Shown piece after piece: positions 7,637 to 25,868 of a DNA stretch of 64,000 nt (its first letter is position 1; the number at the start of each line of letters is the position of its first letter). Position numbers and translations under genes: made by a program. The notes beneath the pieces are model-generated. The model was not told where the DNA came from, did no database searches, and saw nothing but the letters and a program-made list of their open reading frames with translations. This DNA comes from Micavibrio aeruginosavorus EPB (GTDB taxonomy: Bacteria > Pseudomonadota > Alphaproteobacteria > Micavibrionales > Micavibrionaceae). Location of the stretch: NCBI RefSeq assembly GCF_000348745.1, contig NC_020812.1, forward strand, positions 1,063,444 through 1,127,443, given 5' to 3'.

Positions 7637-9214
7637 ATGACCAGCTTGAAACAGGAAATTGACCAACGCCGCACTTTCGCGATCATCGCGCACCCGGACG
7701 CCGGTAAAACGACGTTGACGGAAAAATTGCTGTTGTTCGGGGGTGCCATTCAGATGGCCGGGATGGTCAAGGCCAAGGGCGACCGCCGCCGCGCACGATC
7801 CGACTGGATGAAAGTGGAACAGGAACGCGGTATTTCCGTCGCGTCATCCGTGATGACGTTCGACTACGCCGGAAATACGTTCAACCTGCTGGATACGCCG
7901 GGCCACGAAGATTTCTCCGAAGATACATACCGCACGCTGTCCGCGGTGGATTCCGCCATTATGGTTTTGGACGCGGCCAAGGGCATTGAATCGCAGACAT
8001 TGAAATTGTTCGAAGTCTGCCGCATGCGCGACATTCCCATCATCACCTTCATCAACAAGCTGGACCGTGATGGACAGGACCCGTTCGACCTGTTGGATGA
8101 AGTTGAAAGCCGCCTGGCGCTGGATGTTGTTCCGGCCAGCTGGCCGATCGGCATGGGTCGTGATTTCAAAGGGTGTTACGACTTGTTTAATGACACGCTG
8201 GTGCTGTTTGATCGCAGCAAGGGCGAAGAATTGCTGGCCAGCATTGAATGCTCCGGCCTCGATGATCCGAAGCTGGACCAGATGTTGCCCGCCGAGCAAC
8301 TGGCGAAATTGCGCGAAGATGTTGAAATGATCCGTGGTGTGTACCCGGAATTCAACCATCAATCCTATCTGGAAGGGCACATGACGCCGGTGTTCTTCGG
8401 ATCCGCCGTCAATAACTTCGGTGTGCGCGAATTGTTGCAGGGGATCGGTAAATACGCGCCCAGCCCGCGCCCGACCAAAACATTGCAACGGGAAATCAAG
8501 CCGGATGAGAACAAGGTCACGGCCTTCGTCTTTAAAATTCAGGCCAACATGGACCCGAAACACCGTGACCGCATCGCCTTTGCGCGGATCTGTTCCGGCA
8601 AGTTTAAAAAGGGCATGAAGCTGACCCATGTGCGCCACGGCAAGCAATTGGTCATTCATAACCCGTTGATGTTCTTTGCTCAGGATCGCGAAACGGTGGA
8701 AGAAGCCTTCGCTGGCGACATTATCGGCATTCCGAACCATGGCAATATGCGCATTGGCGATGCCTTGACCGAGGGTGAAACGTTGACCTTTACCGGTATT
8801 CCCAGCTTTGCGCCGGAATTGTTGCAACGGGCCCGGGCCGATGATCCGCTGAAGGCGAAACATTTGTCCGCCGCACTGGAACAATTGGCGGAGGAGGGCG
8901 TCGCCCGTATCTTCAAACCCGCCATCGATCCGAACTGGATCGTGGGGGTTGTCGGTGCGTTGCAGTTTGATGTTCTGATGGACCGCATCCGCAGCGAATA
9001 TAACATTCCGGTGAAGTTCGAGCAGGTCGAGGTCTATGCCGCCCGTTGGGTTAGCTGTGACGATCCGGCCGAGATGAAGAAATTCGTTGATACGATGGGC
9101 AGCGCCGTGGCCAACGACCATGACGGCGACCCGGTCTTCCTGGCCCGCAATTCATGGCATTTGAATGATACGAAGGACAAGTTTCCGAAGATCGAATTCA
9201 AAGCGACGAAGTAA
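7637..9214 (+). CDS. prfC: peptide chain release factor 3
   Basis: RF3 is a translational GTPase that removes RF1/RF2 from the ribosome after termination. The start at 7637 gives MTSLKQEIDQRRTFAIIAH, matching the family; an in-frame start at 7601 adds 12 residues without homology. G1 is AHPDAGKTT, G2 includes RGISVASSVM, G3 is DTPGHEDFSEDTYRTL and G4 is NKLDRDGQDP. The length of 525 residues is normal. It stands alone as a transcription unit and is followed by a strong terminator. Confidence 0.95.
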   Translation: MTSLKQEIDQRRTFAIIAHPDAGKTTLTEKLLLFGGAIQMAGMVKAKGDRRRARSDWMKVEQERGISVASSVMTFDYAGNTFNLLDTPGHEDFSEDTYRTLSAVDSAIMVLDAAKGIESQTLKLFEVCRMRDIPIITFINKLDRDGQDPFDLLDEVESRLALDVVPASWPIGMGRDFKGCYDLFNDTLVLFDRSKGEELLASIECSGLDDPKLDQMLPAEQLAKLREDVEMIRGVYPEFNHQSYLEGHMTPVFFGSAVNNFGVRELLQGIGKYAPSPRPTKTLQREIKPDENKVTAFVFKIQANMDPKHRDRIAFARICSGKFKKGMKLTHVRHGKQLVIHNPLMFFAQDRETVEEAFAGDIIGIPNHGNMRIGDALTEGETLTFTGIPSFAPELLQRARADDPLKAKHLSAALEQLAEEGVARIFKPAIDPNWIVGVVGALQFDVLMDRIRSEYNIPVKFEQVEVYAARWVSCDDPAEMKKFVDTMGSAVANDHDGDPVFLARNSWHLNDTKDKFPKIEFKATK

Positions 9215-9220
9215 CAATAT

Positions 9221-9248
9221 AAAAAACCCCGCCGAAGCGGGGTTTTTT
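9221..9248. terminator. rho-independent terminator after prfC
   Basis: The stem ACCCCGCcgaaGCGGGGT is flanked by A6 on the left and T6 on the right, so it can work in both directions and serves prfC and the convergent gene ending at 9254. Confidence 0.9.
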
Positions 9249-9253
9249 ATTGC

Positions 9254-10021
9254 TTATGCCGGGTTCAGCCCAAAACGCAACGCCTTGTAAACCTTGGCGA
9301 TGGTTGGGTGGTTGTTCATGAATTCAATCTTGCGGTCCTGATTGCCATACGCAAACCCGTAATATTCGTGTTTGATAATGTCGTTCAGGTTATGGCGTGT
9401 TGCATTCGGGGCTGCGTGTGGCAACAGGTGGATTTCGCGTTCCACCGGGCTTACGCCACTGATCAATCCGCAATCCATGAAGATGGAAAACCCTTGTGCC
9501 GATGTGCACGCGGACAGGGCCGTGCGGATCTGGCTTTGCAATGCCCACATTTCCATTTCATCCCGTTCGTGCAGGCATCCGGTAAACCCGGCCTGGCCGA
9601 CGGTGGTGATCACCATGTGGTTCGGGACAATCGCGTCTTTGGATGCCTCGCGGTAGCATCGTGCATTCTGGCCAAAGGTGAACAGCAATTCACGTTTTTT
9701 GTTTTCGGGCATAAAGCCTTTCAACGGGCCGTACATGTCGCCCTTAACGGCGCTCAGGAACGTTGTGCCGGGCATGCGTTTATTCATGTCGATGATATTG
9801 ATGCGCACGTTCGGTTCGGTCTGCCCGGCGGCGGCGCCATCAACGGCGGAGATCAGGATGCGCGAGGAATCGCCTTCGAAATACATATCGTCGCGAATGC
9901 GCATGGCACGGGCCCACAAATCGGCTTCAGCTTGGGGTGAAACCTGATCCAGCCGCGTGATATTCGGGGTCGCAATGGTCACAAAAGAATGACCGTTGAA
10001 ATTTTTGTTCAGTGTGCCCAT
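9254..10021 (-). CDS. hypothetical protein
   Basis: A 255-residue soluble protein that I do not recognise. It is rich in Met, His and Asn and contains several cysteines (ARCYREASK, GFTGCLHERDEMEMW, SACTSAQGF, FMDCGLIS). The C-terminus is amphipathic. No signal peptide or membrane helix is seen. It is a single-gene unit reading toward the prfC terminator. An AGGA lies about 9 bases before the ATG. Confidence 0.65.
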   Translation of the reverse strand: MGTLNKNFNGHSFVTIATPNITRLDQVSPQAEADLWARAMRIRDDMYFEGDSSRILISAVDGAAAGQTEPNVRINIIDMNKRMPGTTFLSAVKGDMYGPLKGFMPENKKRELLFTFGQNARCYREASKDAIVPNHMVITTVGQAGFTGCLHERDEMEMWALQSQIRTALSACTSAQGFSIFMDCGLISGVSPVEREIHLLPHAAPNATRHNLNDIIKHEYYGFAYGNQDRKIEFMNNHPTIAKVYKALRFGLNPA

Positions 10022-18586: not shown

Positions 18587-18985
18587 TTATCCCGTAATAA
18601 CGTATTGTTCTTCTGAATCCCGGTATTTGTTGTAATCGGCGGGTTTGGCAGGGGGGTGCGCGGCTGCAAATCCCATATTGTTTGGCGTGTTTCCGCCTGC
18701 CCCAAGATGTATTTTCGCAATTCCCGCCTTGTGCGCGGCCTTGGCAAAGGTCGCGCATAGTTTTTTCCATTGCTTCACATCCATCTGGCTGGGCAGATAT
18801 TCCAGGGAATCGAGGACCAGCTCGCCTTTCTTTCCACGCCACGCCCAGCTTTGGGCAACGATCTGATCGGTTTTGTTGTTGGTGACAACGTAAAACGCGG
18901 CCTTGGGCGAGAGGAAACCGTGTTGCGCGCATTCACGGCCCTCACCGCTCCGCCAATATGCTGGCAACAGGCGGTAAAGGCCCCC
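18587..18985 (-). pseudogene. out-of-frame C-terminal domain of the ankyrin gene
   Basis: The frame ending at 18587 encodes a domain-like sequence from LYRLLPAYWRSGEGREC through QIVAQSWAWRGKKGELVLD to the acidic C-terminus, clearly more protein-like than the tail read by the ankyrin frame over the same DNA. The two frames would join at a G run (CCCCC on the plus strand, 18981-18985): one extra G there gives a continuous protein. The domain resembles acetyltransferase-like C-terminal modules, but this is a weak impression. The break could be a mutation, phase variation or a sequencing error. Confidence 0.6.
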
Positions 18986-21381
18986 AACGCCAATCCGCGT
19001 ATATCCCCATCAGGCAGGCGGTGGAACGTAAACCCATCTTTGCCGAAGGCTGCGCCATCGATCGTAATATCCGGTATGGCATCGGCGGGTTTTTTGTTGT
19101 CGTTGGCGGCGTATGTCTTTTGATATTTTTTGATGGTTTTTAACGCCGCATCAAAATCTTCATCATCCCATGCGCAATCCAGAGCGATGAGGGATAATTC
19201 CGGGTTTTTGTGCGCATTTTTATACGCATAATCGGCGATAATTTCTTTCGTATTTTTCAGGGACCAGAACCGCCCCGATCGATCCTGTGCCGGACGGGGC
19301 AGGCGGTGGGAAAATTTTACAAATTTCGCCATCTCCGGCCCGCATTGCAAAACCGCATCGCCCCATGATTTTAAATCCAGACTTTGGCCATCTCCGATCG
19401 CCTTTGGCGAAGGAATTGAAATCATCTGGATGACATTGTGCAAAGGTTGATTGCCATGTGCGCCCCATTTTTCCAGATATTGCAGGATGCGTGATTCCGT
19501 ACCAAACAAGGCGGCGGCGTTATACGCATAGGGGTAAGCCATATTTTCGGGATAACCCTCTTGCACCAGGATTGCGGCAACGGTATCCAATACGGATCGT
19601 TTTATCAGGGTTGGATCTTTTGCGGTGATGGATGTGGGAATGGTCGCGTATCCATGAATATTGCCCCACCGCATTACGCCCTGAATCTGTTCCTGTGTCT
19701 CTTGTAGCAAGCATTCGGTGCGGGCCCCGTGCGCGATCAATAATTTTATAATATCCGCATTTCTTTTTCGAACGGCAAGGCGTAAGGGGGATTCGTTATT
19801 GGTATGAAAATCGGCCCCGTTTTCGATCAGGATTCGGGTCACATCGGCTGTGGCAGAAACGCGCAGGGCTTCCTCATTTTCTGCATGGACATTGGCACCG
19901 TGTTTAATCAACAATTCCACAATATCCGCCCGGCCCTTCACGGACGCGAACCGCAAAGCCGCATCGCTGTTCGCCCGAACATCGGCCCCATGTTTGATGA
20001 GGAGTTTGATAACATCGATATGGCCATGTTCAACGGCCACCCGCAGGGCCTCGTCATTTTTGGCGTGGATATTGGCTTTGTGTTTTATCAGCAGTTTAAC
20101 AATGGCGGTATGGCCATTTCCCGCAGCAGCGCGCAGTGCCCAATCATCGTTGGTGTGGGGGATGACTCCGTGTTTGATAAGTAAGCGGACGATGTTTGTG
20201 TGGCCGTTACTTGCGGCCCACTCTAGGCCGCTTCTTGTCGTCCATTCCCGCGTCAGTTCGCAATCATTGTTAGCAGTATGGCCTATGTGTTTGGTGAGAT
20301 GGCTTTTTTGTTTGATGATGAGCCGAACAATATTGATATGGCCACTTGCCGCGGCCGTTGACAGGATTGCATCACTGATGTTGGCGTTGTGTTTTATCAG
20401 TAGTTTGAAAATATCGATGCGGCCATTTATCGCAGCCGCCCGCAGGGCCATATCATGGTTGGCGTGGATGTCGGTATTATGCTTGAGGAGCAATCGGACA
20501 ATTCTGATGTTGCCATTTTCCGCAGCGGTCAACAGGACTTCATCACTGATGTTGGCGTTGTGTTTTATCAACAGCTTGACAATGGCGATGTGGCCATTTT
20601 TTATCGCCAGCCGCAAGGCCCAACTGTCTTTTGTGTTGATATCGGCCCCGCGTTTGACAAGCAAACGGGCAATTTTGATATGACCGTTTGCTGCAGCCTC
20701 TCGCAGGGCCCAACTATCGTTAGCAGTGATATCGGCCCCATGTTTGATAAGCAGTCGGAGAATATCGATCTGGCCATTTTCGGCCGCATGGCGCAGTGCC
20801 GCGCCATTGTTAGCGTGTATGTTAACTCCGCGTTCAATCAGCAGTCGGACGATGTCAATGCGGCTCTTCGCCGCCGCGCATCGCAGGGCGGATTCATTGA
20901 TACTGTCGATCGCGGCGTCATGCGCGATCAACAATCGAACGATATCAATATGCCCGTTTGATGCGGCATGGATCAGAGCGGTTCCGTAACAAACCCGATC
21001 ATCGGCGGTGAAATCAATGCTGCCTTTTTGAATGATGGATTGAACGCGGTCCATATCGCCGTTTTGGGCGGCGTCAATAAATTTCTGTTCGATCGGCAAG
21101 GGGAAGGATTTGACAATGTCTTCGTATGTTTTTTGTTTCTGGTTTTTCGGTGGCGCGCCAAGCGATTCATACAGGTCACGCACATGATCCACCCCCTGAT
21201 CCGCGTGGGTGCGGAGCGTTTCAATCGACGCGTCCATTTCATTCCGCGCCAGCCGTTGCGCTAGCGGGGGCAGGGCTTTGGCCAGGGCGTCAAGATCGTT
21301 CCGGTCCGGCGCGTTCGTGCGCAGGGCCGCGATCACGGCCAGCGCATTTGTGATCTCGATCGGGGTTTGCTTTTCGTCCAT
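18775..21381 (-). CDS. ankyrin-repeat protein, probably frameshifted near the 3' end
   Basis: The frame gives 868 residues from the ATG at 21381 (MDEKQTPIEIT); a TTG at 21441 would add 20 residues but overlaps promoter-like DNA. Residues about 105-590 contain some 15 ankyrin repeats of about 30-33 residues with the core (N/S)GHIDIVRLLIKHGADI. The repeats are very alike, which suggests expansion by duplication. The region after them (about 600-800) is not recognised. The last 70 residues (from about 800) are Arg/Pro/Ser-rich and look like wrong-frame translation; the real C-terminus is in the other frame down to 18587. Ankyrin proteins mediate protein contacts and are often effectors; here no secretion signal is seen. 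Confidence 0.8.
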   Translation of the reverse strand: MDEKQTPIEITNALAVIAALRTNAPDRNDLDALAKALPPLAQRLARNEMDASIETLRTHADQGVDHVRDLYESLGAPPKNQKQKTYEDIVKSFPLPIEQKFIDAAQNGDMDRVQSIIQKGSIDFTADDRVCYGTALIHAASNGHIDIVRLLIAHDAAIDSINESALRCAAAKSRIDIVRLLIERGVNIHANNGAALRHAAENGQIDILRLLIKHGADITANDSWALREAAANGHIKIARLLVKRGADINTKDSWALRLAIKNGHIAIVKLLIKHNANISDEVLLTAAENGNIRIVRLLLKHNTDIHANHDMALRAAAINGRIDIFKLLIKHNANISDAILSTAAASGHINIVRLIIKQKSHLTKHIGHTANNDCELTREWTTRSGLEWAASNGHTNIVRLLIKHGVIPHTNDDWALRAAAGNGHTAIVKLLIKHKANIHAKNDEALRVAVEHGHIDVIKLLIKHGADVRANSDAALRFASVKGRADIVELLIKHGANVHAENEEALRVSATADVTRILIENGADFHTNNESPLRLAVRKRNADIIKLLIAHGARTECLLQETQEQIQGVMRWGNIHGYATIPTSITAKDPTLIKRSVLDTVAAILVQEGYPENMAYPYAYNAAALFGTESRILQYLEKWGAHGNQPLHNVIQMISIPSPKAIGDGQSLDLKSWGDAVLQCGPEMAKFVKFSHRLPRPAQDRSGRFWSLKNTKEIIADYAYKNAHKNPELSLIALDCAWDDEDFDAALKTIKKYQKTYAANDNKKPADAIPDITIDGAAFGKDGFTFHRLPDGDIRGLALGAFTACCQHIGGAVRAVNARNTVSSRPRPRFTLSPTTKPIRSLPKAGRGVERKASWSSIPWNICPARWM

Positions 21382-21470
21382 GCTCCGCGCCTTTGACAAT
21401 CCCAAGCGAGAACTATTGTCATAATATTTAAGTGTGGTCAAACTTTTTGAATGGCGGGAGGGGGGACAAC

Positions 21471-23117: not shown

Positions 23118-24122
23118 TTACGCCGCAATCCATTCCGGCCCGACCGCTTGATCCACGGCGGCGAGGGCGGTTTCGATAATGGCTCCGGTCGTACCCGGCA
23201 AATGGGCCTCGGTGGACAGGATGCGGCGCCAGACCCGGCCACCGCGCTGGCCTTGGTACAGACCCAGCATATGGCGGGTGATGGATTTCACCGGGGTGCC
23301 GGTGGCGCGGCGGTCCTCGATATACGGGATCATGGCCCGGGCGATGTCGGCCCGGCTGGCTGTGGTCGTATGGCCGTACAAAGCCTGTTCAATCTCGGTC
23401 AGCATCCAGGGGTTCTGGTACGCTTCGCGCCCGATCATCACCCCGTCAAAAGTATCCAGATGGGTTTGGGTTTCGGTCAGGGTTTTGATCCCGCCATTCA
23501 CGATCACCCGCATATCCGGAAACGCGGTTTTAATCCCGGCGGCAATGTCATAGCGCAGCGGGGGGATTTCCCGGTTTTCTTTCGGGCTGAGGCCTTTTAG
23601 CCAGGCTTTACGGGCGTGGATGATGACCTTACGGCATCCGGCCTCGTGAATGGATTGGACGAAGGTGTGCAGAAATTCTTCGTCCACGCACTCATCGACA
23701 CCAATGCGGCATTTCACTGTTATTTCAGTATTTTGCGCGGTGTTGATCATGTGGGATACGCAGTCACCAACGCGCCCCGGATCCTTCATCAGGCAGGCCC
23801 CGAATGCACCGTTCTGCACCCGGTCGCTGGGGCACCCACAATTCAGGTTGATTTCATCATACCCGTAATCGGCGCCAATCGCGGCGCACTGGCCCAGATG
23901 GGCGGGGTCCGATCCGCCCAGTTGCAGGGCGACGGGGTGTTCGGCGGGGCTGAAAGCCAGGTAACGGTCCCGGTCGCCAAAGATAATGGCCCCGGTCGTG
24001 ACCATTTCCGTGTACAGGCGCACATGCGGCGCGATCAAGCGCAAAAACACCCGGCAATGCCGGTCAGTCCAATCCAGCATCGGGGCGACAGAGATTTCAG
24101 GTGTTTGTTTCACGTGATACAT
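23118..24122 (-). CDS. dusA: tRNA-dihydrouridine synthase A
   Basis: DusA reduces uridine 20/20a in the D-loop of tRNA with FMN and NADPH. In 334 residues the FMN barrel starts with ISVAPMLDWTDRHCR; the catalytic loop is NCGCPSDRVQNGAFGACLM, and VKCRIGVDE and IIHARKAWLKGLSPKENREIP are characteristic of the DusA subgroup. The length is normal. No good Shine-Dalgarno precedes the ATG at 24122. It is divergent from the SH3-domain gene. Confidence 0.95.
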   Translation of the reverse strand: MYHVKQTPEISVAPMLDWTDRHCRVFLRLIAPHVRLYTEMVTTGAIIFGDRDRYLAFSPAEHPVALQLGGSDPAHLGQCAAIGADYGYDEINLNCGCPSDRVQNGAFGACLMKDPGRVGDCVSHMINTAQNTEITVKCRIGVDECVDEEFLHTFVQSIHEAGCRKVIIHARKAWLKGLSPKENREIPPLRYDIAAGIKTAFPDMRVIVNGGIKTLTETQTHLDTFDGVMIGREAYQNPWMLTEIEQALYGHTTTASRADIARAMIPYIEDRRATGTPVKSITRHMLGLYQGQRGGRVWRRILSTEAHLPGTTGAIIETALAAVDQAVGPEWIAA

Positions 24123-24222
24123 GAGCGGGAGAGGTACAGAAAACTGCCGTTTATGTCAATCTTTGCGCTGTTTGCAAAAACTATTGATCTGCATCGCCGA
24201 GCGTGTATTTTCCTTATCCATC

Positions 24223-24744
24223 ATGATGATCTGTTTGCGTATTCTCATTCTTTCTCTGGGGCTGGCCGTGTTTGCGGGCGGGGCCGGGGTGTCGTTTGCC
24301 AAGGATGAGGAGCCGCGCTTTAACGCCACGGGCTTGGCGTTGCCGCGTTTCGTGTCTCTGGCTGCGGAAGAGGCGCATGTGCGCGCTGGGCCGGCGACGC
24401 GGTATCCGATAAAGTGGATTTACAAGAAACGCGGATTGCCGGTTGAAATTGTTCAAGAATTTGATGTCTGGCGTAAAATTCGCGACCGGGATGGTGATGA
24501 GGGGTGGCTGCACAAATCTCTGCTGTCCAGCCGCCGCAATGTTATTATTTTGGGTGAAGAATCGGTCGCAATCCGTTCACAAGACAGTGAAAATTCCCGC
24601 ACCATCGCGCGGCTCCAGCCCGGCGTAATTGCAACGGCCAGCGAATGCAAAAAAGCATGGTGTAAAGTCACCGCTGGCGGCTACGAAGGGTGGGCCGAAA
24701 GAAAATCACTTTGGGGTATTTACGCCACCGAAGAGTTCGACTAA
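24223..24744 (+). CDS. exported SH3-domain protein
   Basis: A 173-residue protein with an N-terminal signal peptide or anchor (CLRILILSLGLAVFAGGAGV ending around SFA). Two bacterial SH3-like modules follow: ARAGP-type start EEAHVRAGPATRYPIKWIY with WRKIRDRDGDEGWLHKSLL, and a second from VAIRSQDSENSRTIARLQ to WCKVTAGGYEGWAERKSLWG. Such modules bind cell-wall peptides in the periplasm; alphaproteobacteria carry many proteins of this type with unknown partners. The ATG at 24223 is chosen because the signal peptide begins there; the frame is open upstream to 24121. Confidence 0.75.
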   Translation: MMICLRILILSLGLAVFAGGAGVSFAKDEEPRFNATGLALPRFVSLAAEEAHVRAGPATRYPIKWIYKKRGLPVEIVQEFDVWRKIRDRDGDEGWLHKSLLSSRRNVIILGEESVAIRSQDSENSRTIARLQPGVIATASECKKAWCKVTAGGYEGWAERKSLWGIYATEEFD

Positions 24745-24754
24745 CCTTCCTTAT

Positions 24755-24889
24755 GTGGGGTTATCCACACCCTATCCACAGACTGATCCACAAAGTTTTT
24801 CACAGGGTTGCGGCGGTTCATCCGATTCGTCGTACGCTCTGATTCCCTCTCGATTCTCTCGCTCTGAAGTACCCAATGACCTTTGATTC
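24755..24889 (+). promoter_or_regulatory. cluster of four DnaA-box-like motifs and four GANTC sites
   Basis: In the gap after the SH3 gene four nonamers stand in direct orientation: TTATCCACA (24761), CTATCCACA (24772), TGATCCACA (24784) and TTTTTCACA (24796). The first and last fit TTWTNCACA exactly; the other two differ by one base. Their starts are 11-12 bases apart, about one helical turn. Four GATTC sites (GANTC, the CcrM methylation sequence) follow at 24824, 24841, 24852 and 24885. This suits a DnaA- and methylation-controlled promoter or part of an origin. I see no adjacent AT-rich unwinding element. Confidence 0.6.
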
Positions 24890-25868
24890 TGCATCCATTC
24901 TGACGGACAAGGCGGCTTTTACGGGCCAGTTTGTCCATGCGCTGGTGTCCAAATGCCGTGACCATAATGGCCGGGGCGTTGATGGCATGCGCCTGATTCA
25001 GATGATGGCCGGGGCGATTGTTGAATTTACCCTGTTGTTCGATGAATCCGACCGTGGGGTGGAGGCGATGTACGACCATCTGGCCACCATGCTCGGCTGT
25101 GAGCCGCAGGAAGGTCCGGTTTCCGATCTGGCCCTGCCGCCGGCCTATATCATTGATTTCCGGGCCGAGCAGGGGCGTGAGCTGACCCGCCGTATGTTCG
25201 AGGACTGGCTGCATTGCGCCTATGAGTTCCAGGACGTCCTGTTGTTCGTCTGCCAGCAGATGTTCATGGCAATGGAGGAAGAGGGGCAACACCGTCGCGA
25301 TCTGTTCCGCCTGTTGATCGAGTGCACCAACCGTTGCCTGGGGTATGAAATTGCGGCGCAGGAGCTCTGCGACATCGTGATTGAGCAGAAGATTGGGCTG
25401 GAGGGCTGGAGCCTGCCGGAGAGCATTTCCGGTCTGTCCGCCGTATCGGGCCGGGCTTTGGCCTTGTCTTTGAACGCCTATCAGCAAACCGCCTTCCGGG
25501 GGGCGGACCTGCCCGAACATTTGGACCGATTAACCTGTGTGATGACACAGGAAGCCGTTCGTCTGGGCCTGCCTGCGGGCAGTGACTGGCGTTTCGGGCT
25601 GGCGGCCAATGACCGCCCGCTGGATGCGCCGTATGAATTGATTGCGTCATTGGAGCCGTTGGCCCGGGATTTCTTCCGGGTGATCCGGATGCATAATCTG
25701 ATGGATCAGGCGGTGGCCAGTGCCAAGGCCACAGGCCGCATGCTGGCCGTGGCCGCGGGTGGGGATCGTCCAGAGGTCGAGCCTGTGATTGCCAAGCCAT
25801 TGGCCATGGCGGCCATGACCGAAACATACAAGACGGTGTGCACCCAGTACGCGATTATGTCGATGTAA
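24876..25868 (+). CDS. hypothetical protein downstream of DnaA-box cluster
   Basis: A 330-residue soluble, mainly helical protein that I do not recognise. It is rich in Met, Cys and acidic residues (YEFQDVLLFVCQQMFMAMEE, IECTNRCLGYEIAAQELCD, LDRLTCVMTQEAVRLGLP). No signal peptide, membrane helix or nucleotide-binding motif is visible. It starts within 72 bases of the last DnaA-box-like motif, and one GANTC site lies inside its first codons, so its expression could depend on the cell cycle. A Shine-Dalgarno is weak (GAAGTACCCA before ATG). Confidence 0.65.
   Translation: MTFDSASILTDKAAFTGQFVHALVSKCRDHNGRGVDGMRLIQMMAGAIVEFTLLFDESDRGVEAMYDHLATMLGCEPQEGPVSDLALPPAYIIDFRAEQGRELTRRMFEDWLHCAYEFQDVLLFVCQQMFMAMEEEGQHRRDLFRLLIECTNRCLGYEIAAQELCDIVIEQKIGLEGWSLPESISGLSAVSGRALALSLNAYQQTAFRGADLPEHLDRLTCVMTQEAVRLGLPAGSDWRFGLAANDRPLDAPYELIASLEPLARDFFRVIRMHNLMDQAVASAKATGRMLAVAAGGDRPEVEPVIAKPLAMAAMTETYKTVCTQYAIMSM

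Follow-up and report, generated by a model that had tools for sequence, protein, structure and literature searches.

A short intergenic region of the Micavibrio aeruginosavorus EPB chromosome carries a row of DnaA-box-like nonamers followed by a group of GATTC sites, which raises the question of whether the locus serves replication, the titration of DnaA or the control of the gene behind it. We examined it within its window, the whole 64,000-nucleotide stretch that was analysed (bases 1,063,444 to 1,127,443 of the one contig, 2,458,610 bp long, with the site at 1,088,200), and compared it with related regions of Micavibrionales. The region is probably the promoter and leader of a gene for a 330-residue protein, and its layout appears to follow that of alphaproteobacterial cell-cycle promoters.

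The box cluster and its chromosomal position

Four DnaA-like nonamers lie on the plus strand between 24761 and 24804, at spacings of 11, 12 and 12 bp. Box 1, TTATCCACA (24761-24769), and box 4, TTTTTCACA (24796-24804), match TTWTNCACA exactly, and between them stand box 2, CTATCCACA (24772-24780), and box 3, TGATCCACA (24784-24792), the latter with the same letters as the Caulobacter G-box (PMC4285127). Four GANTC sites, all GATTC and without strand, follow within 66 bases (24824-24889). They occupy 24824-24828, where the context CGATTCG fits YGAKTCG, a motif cited in PMC7987155, and 24841-24845, 24852-24856 and 24885-24889, the last of which falls in the first codons of the 330-residue gene (ATG at 24876). 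All four boxes and all four GANTC sites were read directly, and the original prediction was right about both arrays and about the two exact matches. Its figure of one GANTC per 256 positions overstates the background about 2-fold, because GANTC is under-represented in the genome (1.95 per kb over 932,610 genome bases examined versus 3.93 per kb simulated).

By itself TTWTNCACA shows no enrichment in the window (3 copies versus 4.64 expected), and exact TTATCCACA has 25 copies in the genome, box 1 among them; the unusual feature is the clustering of boxes, not their frequency. When boxes were counted by strict consensus or with at most one mismatch, this was the only place in the 932,610 genome bases examined with at least three boxes in 60 bp. 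A search of the whole genome for TCCACA-N3-8-TCCACA gave 8 matches against 0 for the reversed control, and this site alone has two such matches that overlap into a triple. Four GANTC in 66 bp occur at 5 places in the 0.93 Mb examined, this site included, so that cluster is uncommon, not unique, and less exceptional than the box cluster. The short length of the motifs, the lack of window-wide TTWTNCACA enrichment and the 4 other four-GANTC clusters would all suit an ordinary promoter in which the box and GATTC matches arose by chance. We hold this explanation to be quite improbable, since 10 Mb of sequence simulated from the window dinucleotide content yielded 0 clusters of three or more boxes in 60 bp, and since the boxes recur in relatives when set against two control genes, as described below.

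Phased, intergenic DnaA boxes are also what part of oriC, as originally proposed, or a secondary origin might look like. GC skew was surveyed coarsely in 41 sampled 20-kb stretches and then in finer plots of selected stretches. In the 41 stretches the skew changes sign near the record start and between 1.20 and 1.28 Mb, and in the finer plots the cumulative skew has its minimum near +390 and its maximum near 1,238,000, which places the origin near base 1 and the terminus at about 1.238 Mb. The site at 1.088 Mb is thus far from the skew minimum, about 88% of the distance from origin to terminus, and the oriC proposal is refuted; even though the 12 kb on either side of the skew minimum contain no box cluster, an origin at this site is exceedingly improbable. 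The 24 kb around base 1 contain one strict box (+63) and six one-mismatch boxes, and with no cluster there oriC may use weak or different sites.

The predicted promoter and its elements across Micavibrionales

The boxes lie between an SH3-domain gene (24121-24744, plus strand; Pfam SH3_4 and SH3_3) and the 330-residue gene (24876-25868, plus strand). A predicted sigma70-type promoter at 24719-24747 on the plus strand overlaps the 3' end and stop codon of the SH3 gene; it matches the consensus with a -35 element TTTACG (24719-24724), a 17-bp spacer and a -10 element TAACCT (24742-24747), from which transcription would be expected to start near 24754. In a scan of named genomes (Micavibrio, other Alphaproteobacteria and Proteobacteria MAGs) 116 places were confirmed and 80 loci kept, and we compared 80 upstream regions, namely 79 of these loci plus the window, omitting one locus near a contig end (L192). 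The motif TTTACN-N17-TANNNN was present in 77 of the 80, versus 2.0 ± 0.9 of 80 in shuffles. It overlaps SH3 codons and stop in 63/77 regions, so its conservation may be partly coding; in the other 14 it stands at least 44 bases past the SH3 stop, and coding does not explain those. By consensus, a conserved sigma70-like core promoter is therefore predicted before the 330-residue gene.

In these 77 regions we counted boxes with at most one mismatch to the consensus from the -10 element to the gene start. At least one DnaA-like box was found in 47 regions and at least two in 18, with the highest number, four, in the window; the remaining 30 have no DnaA-like box in the span, which counts against the promoter reading. 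The boxes are strongly directional and regularly placed, 69 of 70 being on the plus strand and 19 of 22 successive spacings being 11 or 12 bp, and 31 of the 70 are exact TTATCCACA. Within 150 bp upstream of the gene, boxes occur in 50/80 regions for the 330-residue gene versus 1/71 for fabA and 4/79 for the SH3 gene. DnaA boxes, as defined by consensus, are thus present in the promoter region both in the window and in compared regions.

Because the boxes follow the predicted start and almost always face one way, they could instead act in the transcript, with the repeated UUAUCCACA and a 5' stem-loop affecting stability or translation. A possible stem-loop at the 5' end of the transcript (24755-24775, plus strand) agrees with this idea: by folding energy only, the 40-nt segment after the -10 element has a mean z of -1.61 over the 77 regions versus -0.22 for a control segment, although in this species the structure is weak (window z -1.2). 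This propensity for a stem-loop, with arms that differ in sequence among the compared regions, suggests a conserved 5' hairpin. Set against an RNA-level leader are the share of nonamers that equal the exact DnaA consensus (31/70) and an Rfam search of window positions 24600-25000 that gave nothing at E-values up to 1; we judge such a leader unlikely.

The GANTC sites were compared over the same 77 regions. In 24 of them a GANTC overlaps the -10 hexamer, typically as TAGAATC, in 44 a GANTC starts 6-40 bases from the -10 start, none has both positions and 9 have neither; taken from 35 bp upstream to 40 bp downstream of the -10 start, 68/77 regions carry one. In the window species the span from 35 bp before the -10 to 40 bp after it is free of GANTC, which counts against the promoter reading; counted from the -10 start, three sites begin at 82, 99 and 110 bases, and the fourth, at 143, is in the gene. 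GANTC density over 150 bp upstream is 10.1 per kb for the 330-residue gene, 3.0 for fabA and 2.65 for the SH3 gene, and 36 of 97 near-start GANTC sites fit YGAKTCG. Placed on a tree of 59 proteins, the two GANTC positions require 6 changes, 5 of them forced by well-supported branches, the tree being of a quick kind with SH-aLRT support only and with two long rows flagged (L196, L204). Boxes are carried by 5/24 regions with GANTC in the -10 versus 42/53 others. Mutual exclusion between the two designs was considered and is a hint only, for the starred branches offer 5 independent pairs and with so few a sign test cannot reach significance.

Related sites at cell-cycle genes and the 330-residue protein

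The genome has family matches over the cut-off for DnaA (PF00308), for GcrA (PF07750, a model that also matched one archaeal control genome) and for a RAMA methyltransferase of CcrM type (PF18755), and GANTC methylation has been observed in a Micavibrionaceae MAG (PMC9296519). We located gcrA and ccrM by family search and ORF listing and assigned ftsZ from its ORF translation, which a Tubulin-family match there supports. Within 100 bp of the 25 exact TTATCCACA sites there are 37 GANTC versus 10.2 expected, a total in which a box pair at 751 kb counts its 3 GANTC twice. The box upstream of ftsZ has the most (8), followed by those at ccrM and upstream of gcrA with 6 each; three places, the window site among them, have 3.

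The gcrA and ftsZ regions of the order show both kinds of site as well. Boxes were found in 22/29 gcrA regions, with about 7.4 GANTC per kb, and in 24/30 ftsZ regions, with 12.1 GANTC per kb, own genome included in each; from the gcrA set one partial match (L245) was dropped, and one member (L241) had just 36 bp upstream. In 20 of the 22 carriers the gcrA box is solely in the orientation opposite to the gene, which speaks further against an RNA-level leader. The gcrA boxes are exact TTATCCACA in 19 of the 22 carriers and mostly lie 95-180 bp upstream, the own site being at C1:2246316 (L127:1517). The own ftsZ upstream site at C1:1837634 (L125:1535) combines a DnaA box with the 8 GANTC.

This pairing also bears on a DnaA-titration or reactivating locus of the datA/DARS type, beside which the adjacent gene would be incidental. 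Such a locus would fit the densest box cluster in the 0.93 Mb examined, and four phased boxes could bind DnaA cooperatively. Opposed to it, the boxes are just four here, a single one stands behind the same promoter in 29 of the 47 box-bearing regions, and GANTC accompanies the boxes, as it does at gcrA and ftsZ. The titration site of the original prediction thus agrees with the cluster and leaves the conserved promoter element and the GANTC sites unexplained, and we regard it as improbable.

Boxes do not accompany cell-cycle genes generally here, a point against the promoter reading. In the own genome no box was found in 400 bp upstream of dnaA or in 350 bp upstream of the hdaA-like gene, and ccrM regions have boxes in 2/28, with 16.6 GANTC per kb; these 28 remained after two of 30 ccrM loci proved too short, and two of them were badly anchored (L261 and L272, the latter one of the two box carriers), so the ccrM rates are rough. 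The idea that boxes mark all cell-cycle genes was therefore rejected. In the window genome ccrM has a likely internal ATG with a box 26 nt before it, which the 2/28 count does not cover. The ccrM upstream region (L123 ~9200-9340) is GANTC-rich in the own genome and in the compared loci, a possible feedback.

Several further sites were observed elsewhere. A four-GANTC cluster at C1:384125 (L121:2125) precedes the dnaA ORF by about 660 bp, and a tandem DnaA-like pair at C1:2335580-2335597 (L129 ~1580) lies upstream of a ribonucleotide reductase-like gene, named by eye. At C1:751002-751024 (L007 ~1501) an inverted pair of exact TTATCCACA, 5 bp apart and with 3 GANTC nearby, sits behind an RNase H-like gene, also named by eye. 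In the window itself, an 888-residue ORF on the minus strand (18775-21441) appears by eye to encode a long protein of ankyrin repeats.

Relatives of the 330-residue protein occur in 34/38 genomes of the genus, family and order, and in 29/29 of those that are well assembled, own included; among 289 genomes sampled from the class there were 3, namely this genome and two more from its family. The neighbouring SH3 gene has a relative in 36/38. The 330-residue protein had no match in Pfam, NCBIfam or the PDB sequences; across 59 members Pfam gave one match (E 0.03, in 1/59), and PHROGs, tried with three members, gave one weak match (E 0.019). Its AlphaFold model is confident (mean pLDDT 88.4, pTM 0.88) and mostly helical, and Foldseek found no PDB structure at an E-value of 0.001 or lower. 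VIA-align placed TbtD (5wa4) first, with rmsd 4.3 over 138 aligned residues and a Z of 7.4, which is within the range that its guidance gives for models without a clear match. Judged by its sequence and its modelled fold, the protein has no convincing match to a recognised family.

We also considered whether the protein replaces HdaA. This is unlikely, because an HdaA-sized ORF with an Hda_lid match is present in 16/19 genomes, own included (the Hda_lid model also matched 3/14 controls, not Caulobacter), and because the AlphaFold model of the 330-residue protein is all-alpha. The sites that its gene has in common with gcrA and ftsZ suggest that the protein may take part in the division programme.

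A proposed regulation and its relation to known systems

The promoter, the boxes and the GANTC sites come from sequence comparison, and from them we infer the start site, DnaA binding, repression and timing. RNA polymerase would start near 24754, and replication-competent DnaA would occupy the phased array (about +8 to +51), blocking early transcription. GcrA with sigma70 would activate from methylated GANTC, and after DnaA is inactivated following initiation, expression would rise, together with gcrA and ftsZ in one programme. Given boxes at about +8 to +51, repression by DnaA is the simplest assumption; its sign follows from box position only, and it is the least certain step. Cell-cycle switching of the 330-residue gene is probable, and the comparison across the order favours the cell-cycle-type promoter that the original prediction had offered as one option.

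A broader idea, which we advance tentatively and which is rather more apt to fail than to hold, is that the 330-residue protein is a new Micavibrionales-specific division component. It would be wired to DnaA through the downstream phased array and to GcrA/CcrM through a GANTC that moved into or out of the -10 at least 5 times, so that the GANTC-in-(-10) and DnaA-box designs would be alternative timings of the same gene. How obligate predatory Alphaproteobacteria couple replication and division to attachment on prey has received little study, and a gene present in 29/29 well-assembled genomes with gcrA/ftsZ-type sites is a concrete candidate for the predator's programme. The shifting GANTC in otherwise matching promoters also offers a natural experiment on how far GcrA-type promoters tolerate rewiring. 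No description of this promoter was found in the accessible part of the literature on Micavibrio CcrM/DnaA or the Micavibrionales cell cycle, most subscription papers lying outside it.

Clusters of DnaA boxes outside the origin are known from datA and DARS. The locus resembles these in being such a cluster and differs in that a conserved promoter and GANTC adjoin the boxes. In Caulobacter, DnaA activates the gcrA, ftsZ, mipZ and hdaA promoters, with 1 box at gcrA, 1 at mipZ, 2 at ftsZ and up to 6 at hdaA (PMC3193534). Like them, the Micavibrionales region has boxes in its promoter, and the gcrA and ftsZ regions of the order carry them too. Unlike them, the boxes here are phased, 11-12 bp apart, share one strand and come after the predicted start, an arrangement that suggests repression, and the gene is uncharacterised and found only in this order. 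In the E. coli dnaA promoter, nearby DnaA boxes let DnaA act as a repressor (PMC8203912); boxes near a promoter are shared with that system, whereas the gene is a different one and the own dnaA lacks a box in its upstream 400 bp. GcrA acts through methylated GANTC, with mipZ, podJ and ctrA P1 of Caulobacter among its targets (PMC3667746). The presence of GANTC at the core promoter of most compared regions (68/77) follows the same pattern, while in the window species the GANTC sites begin 82-143 bases after the -10 start.
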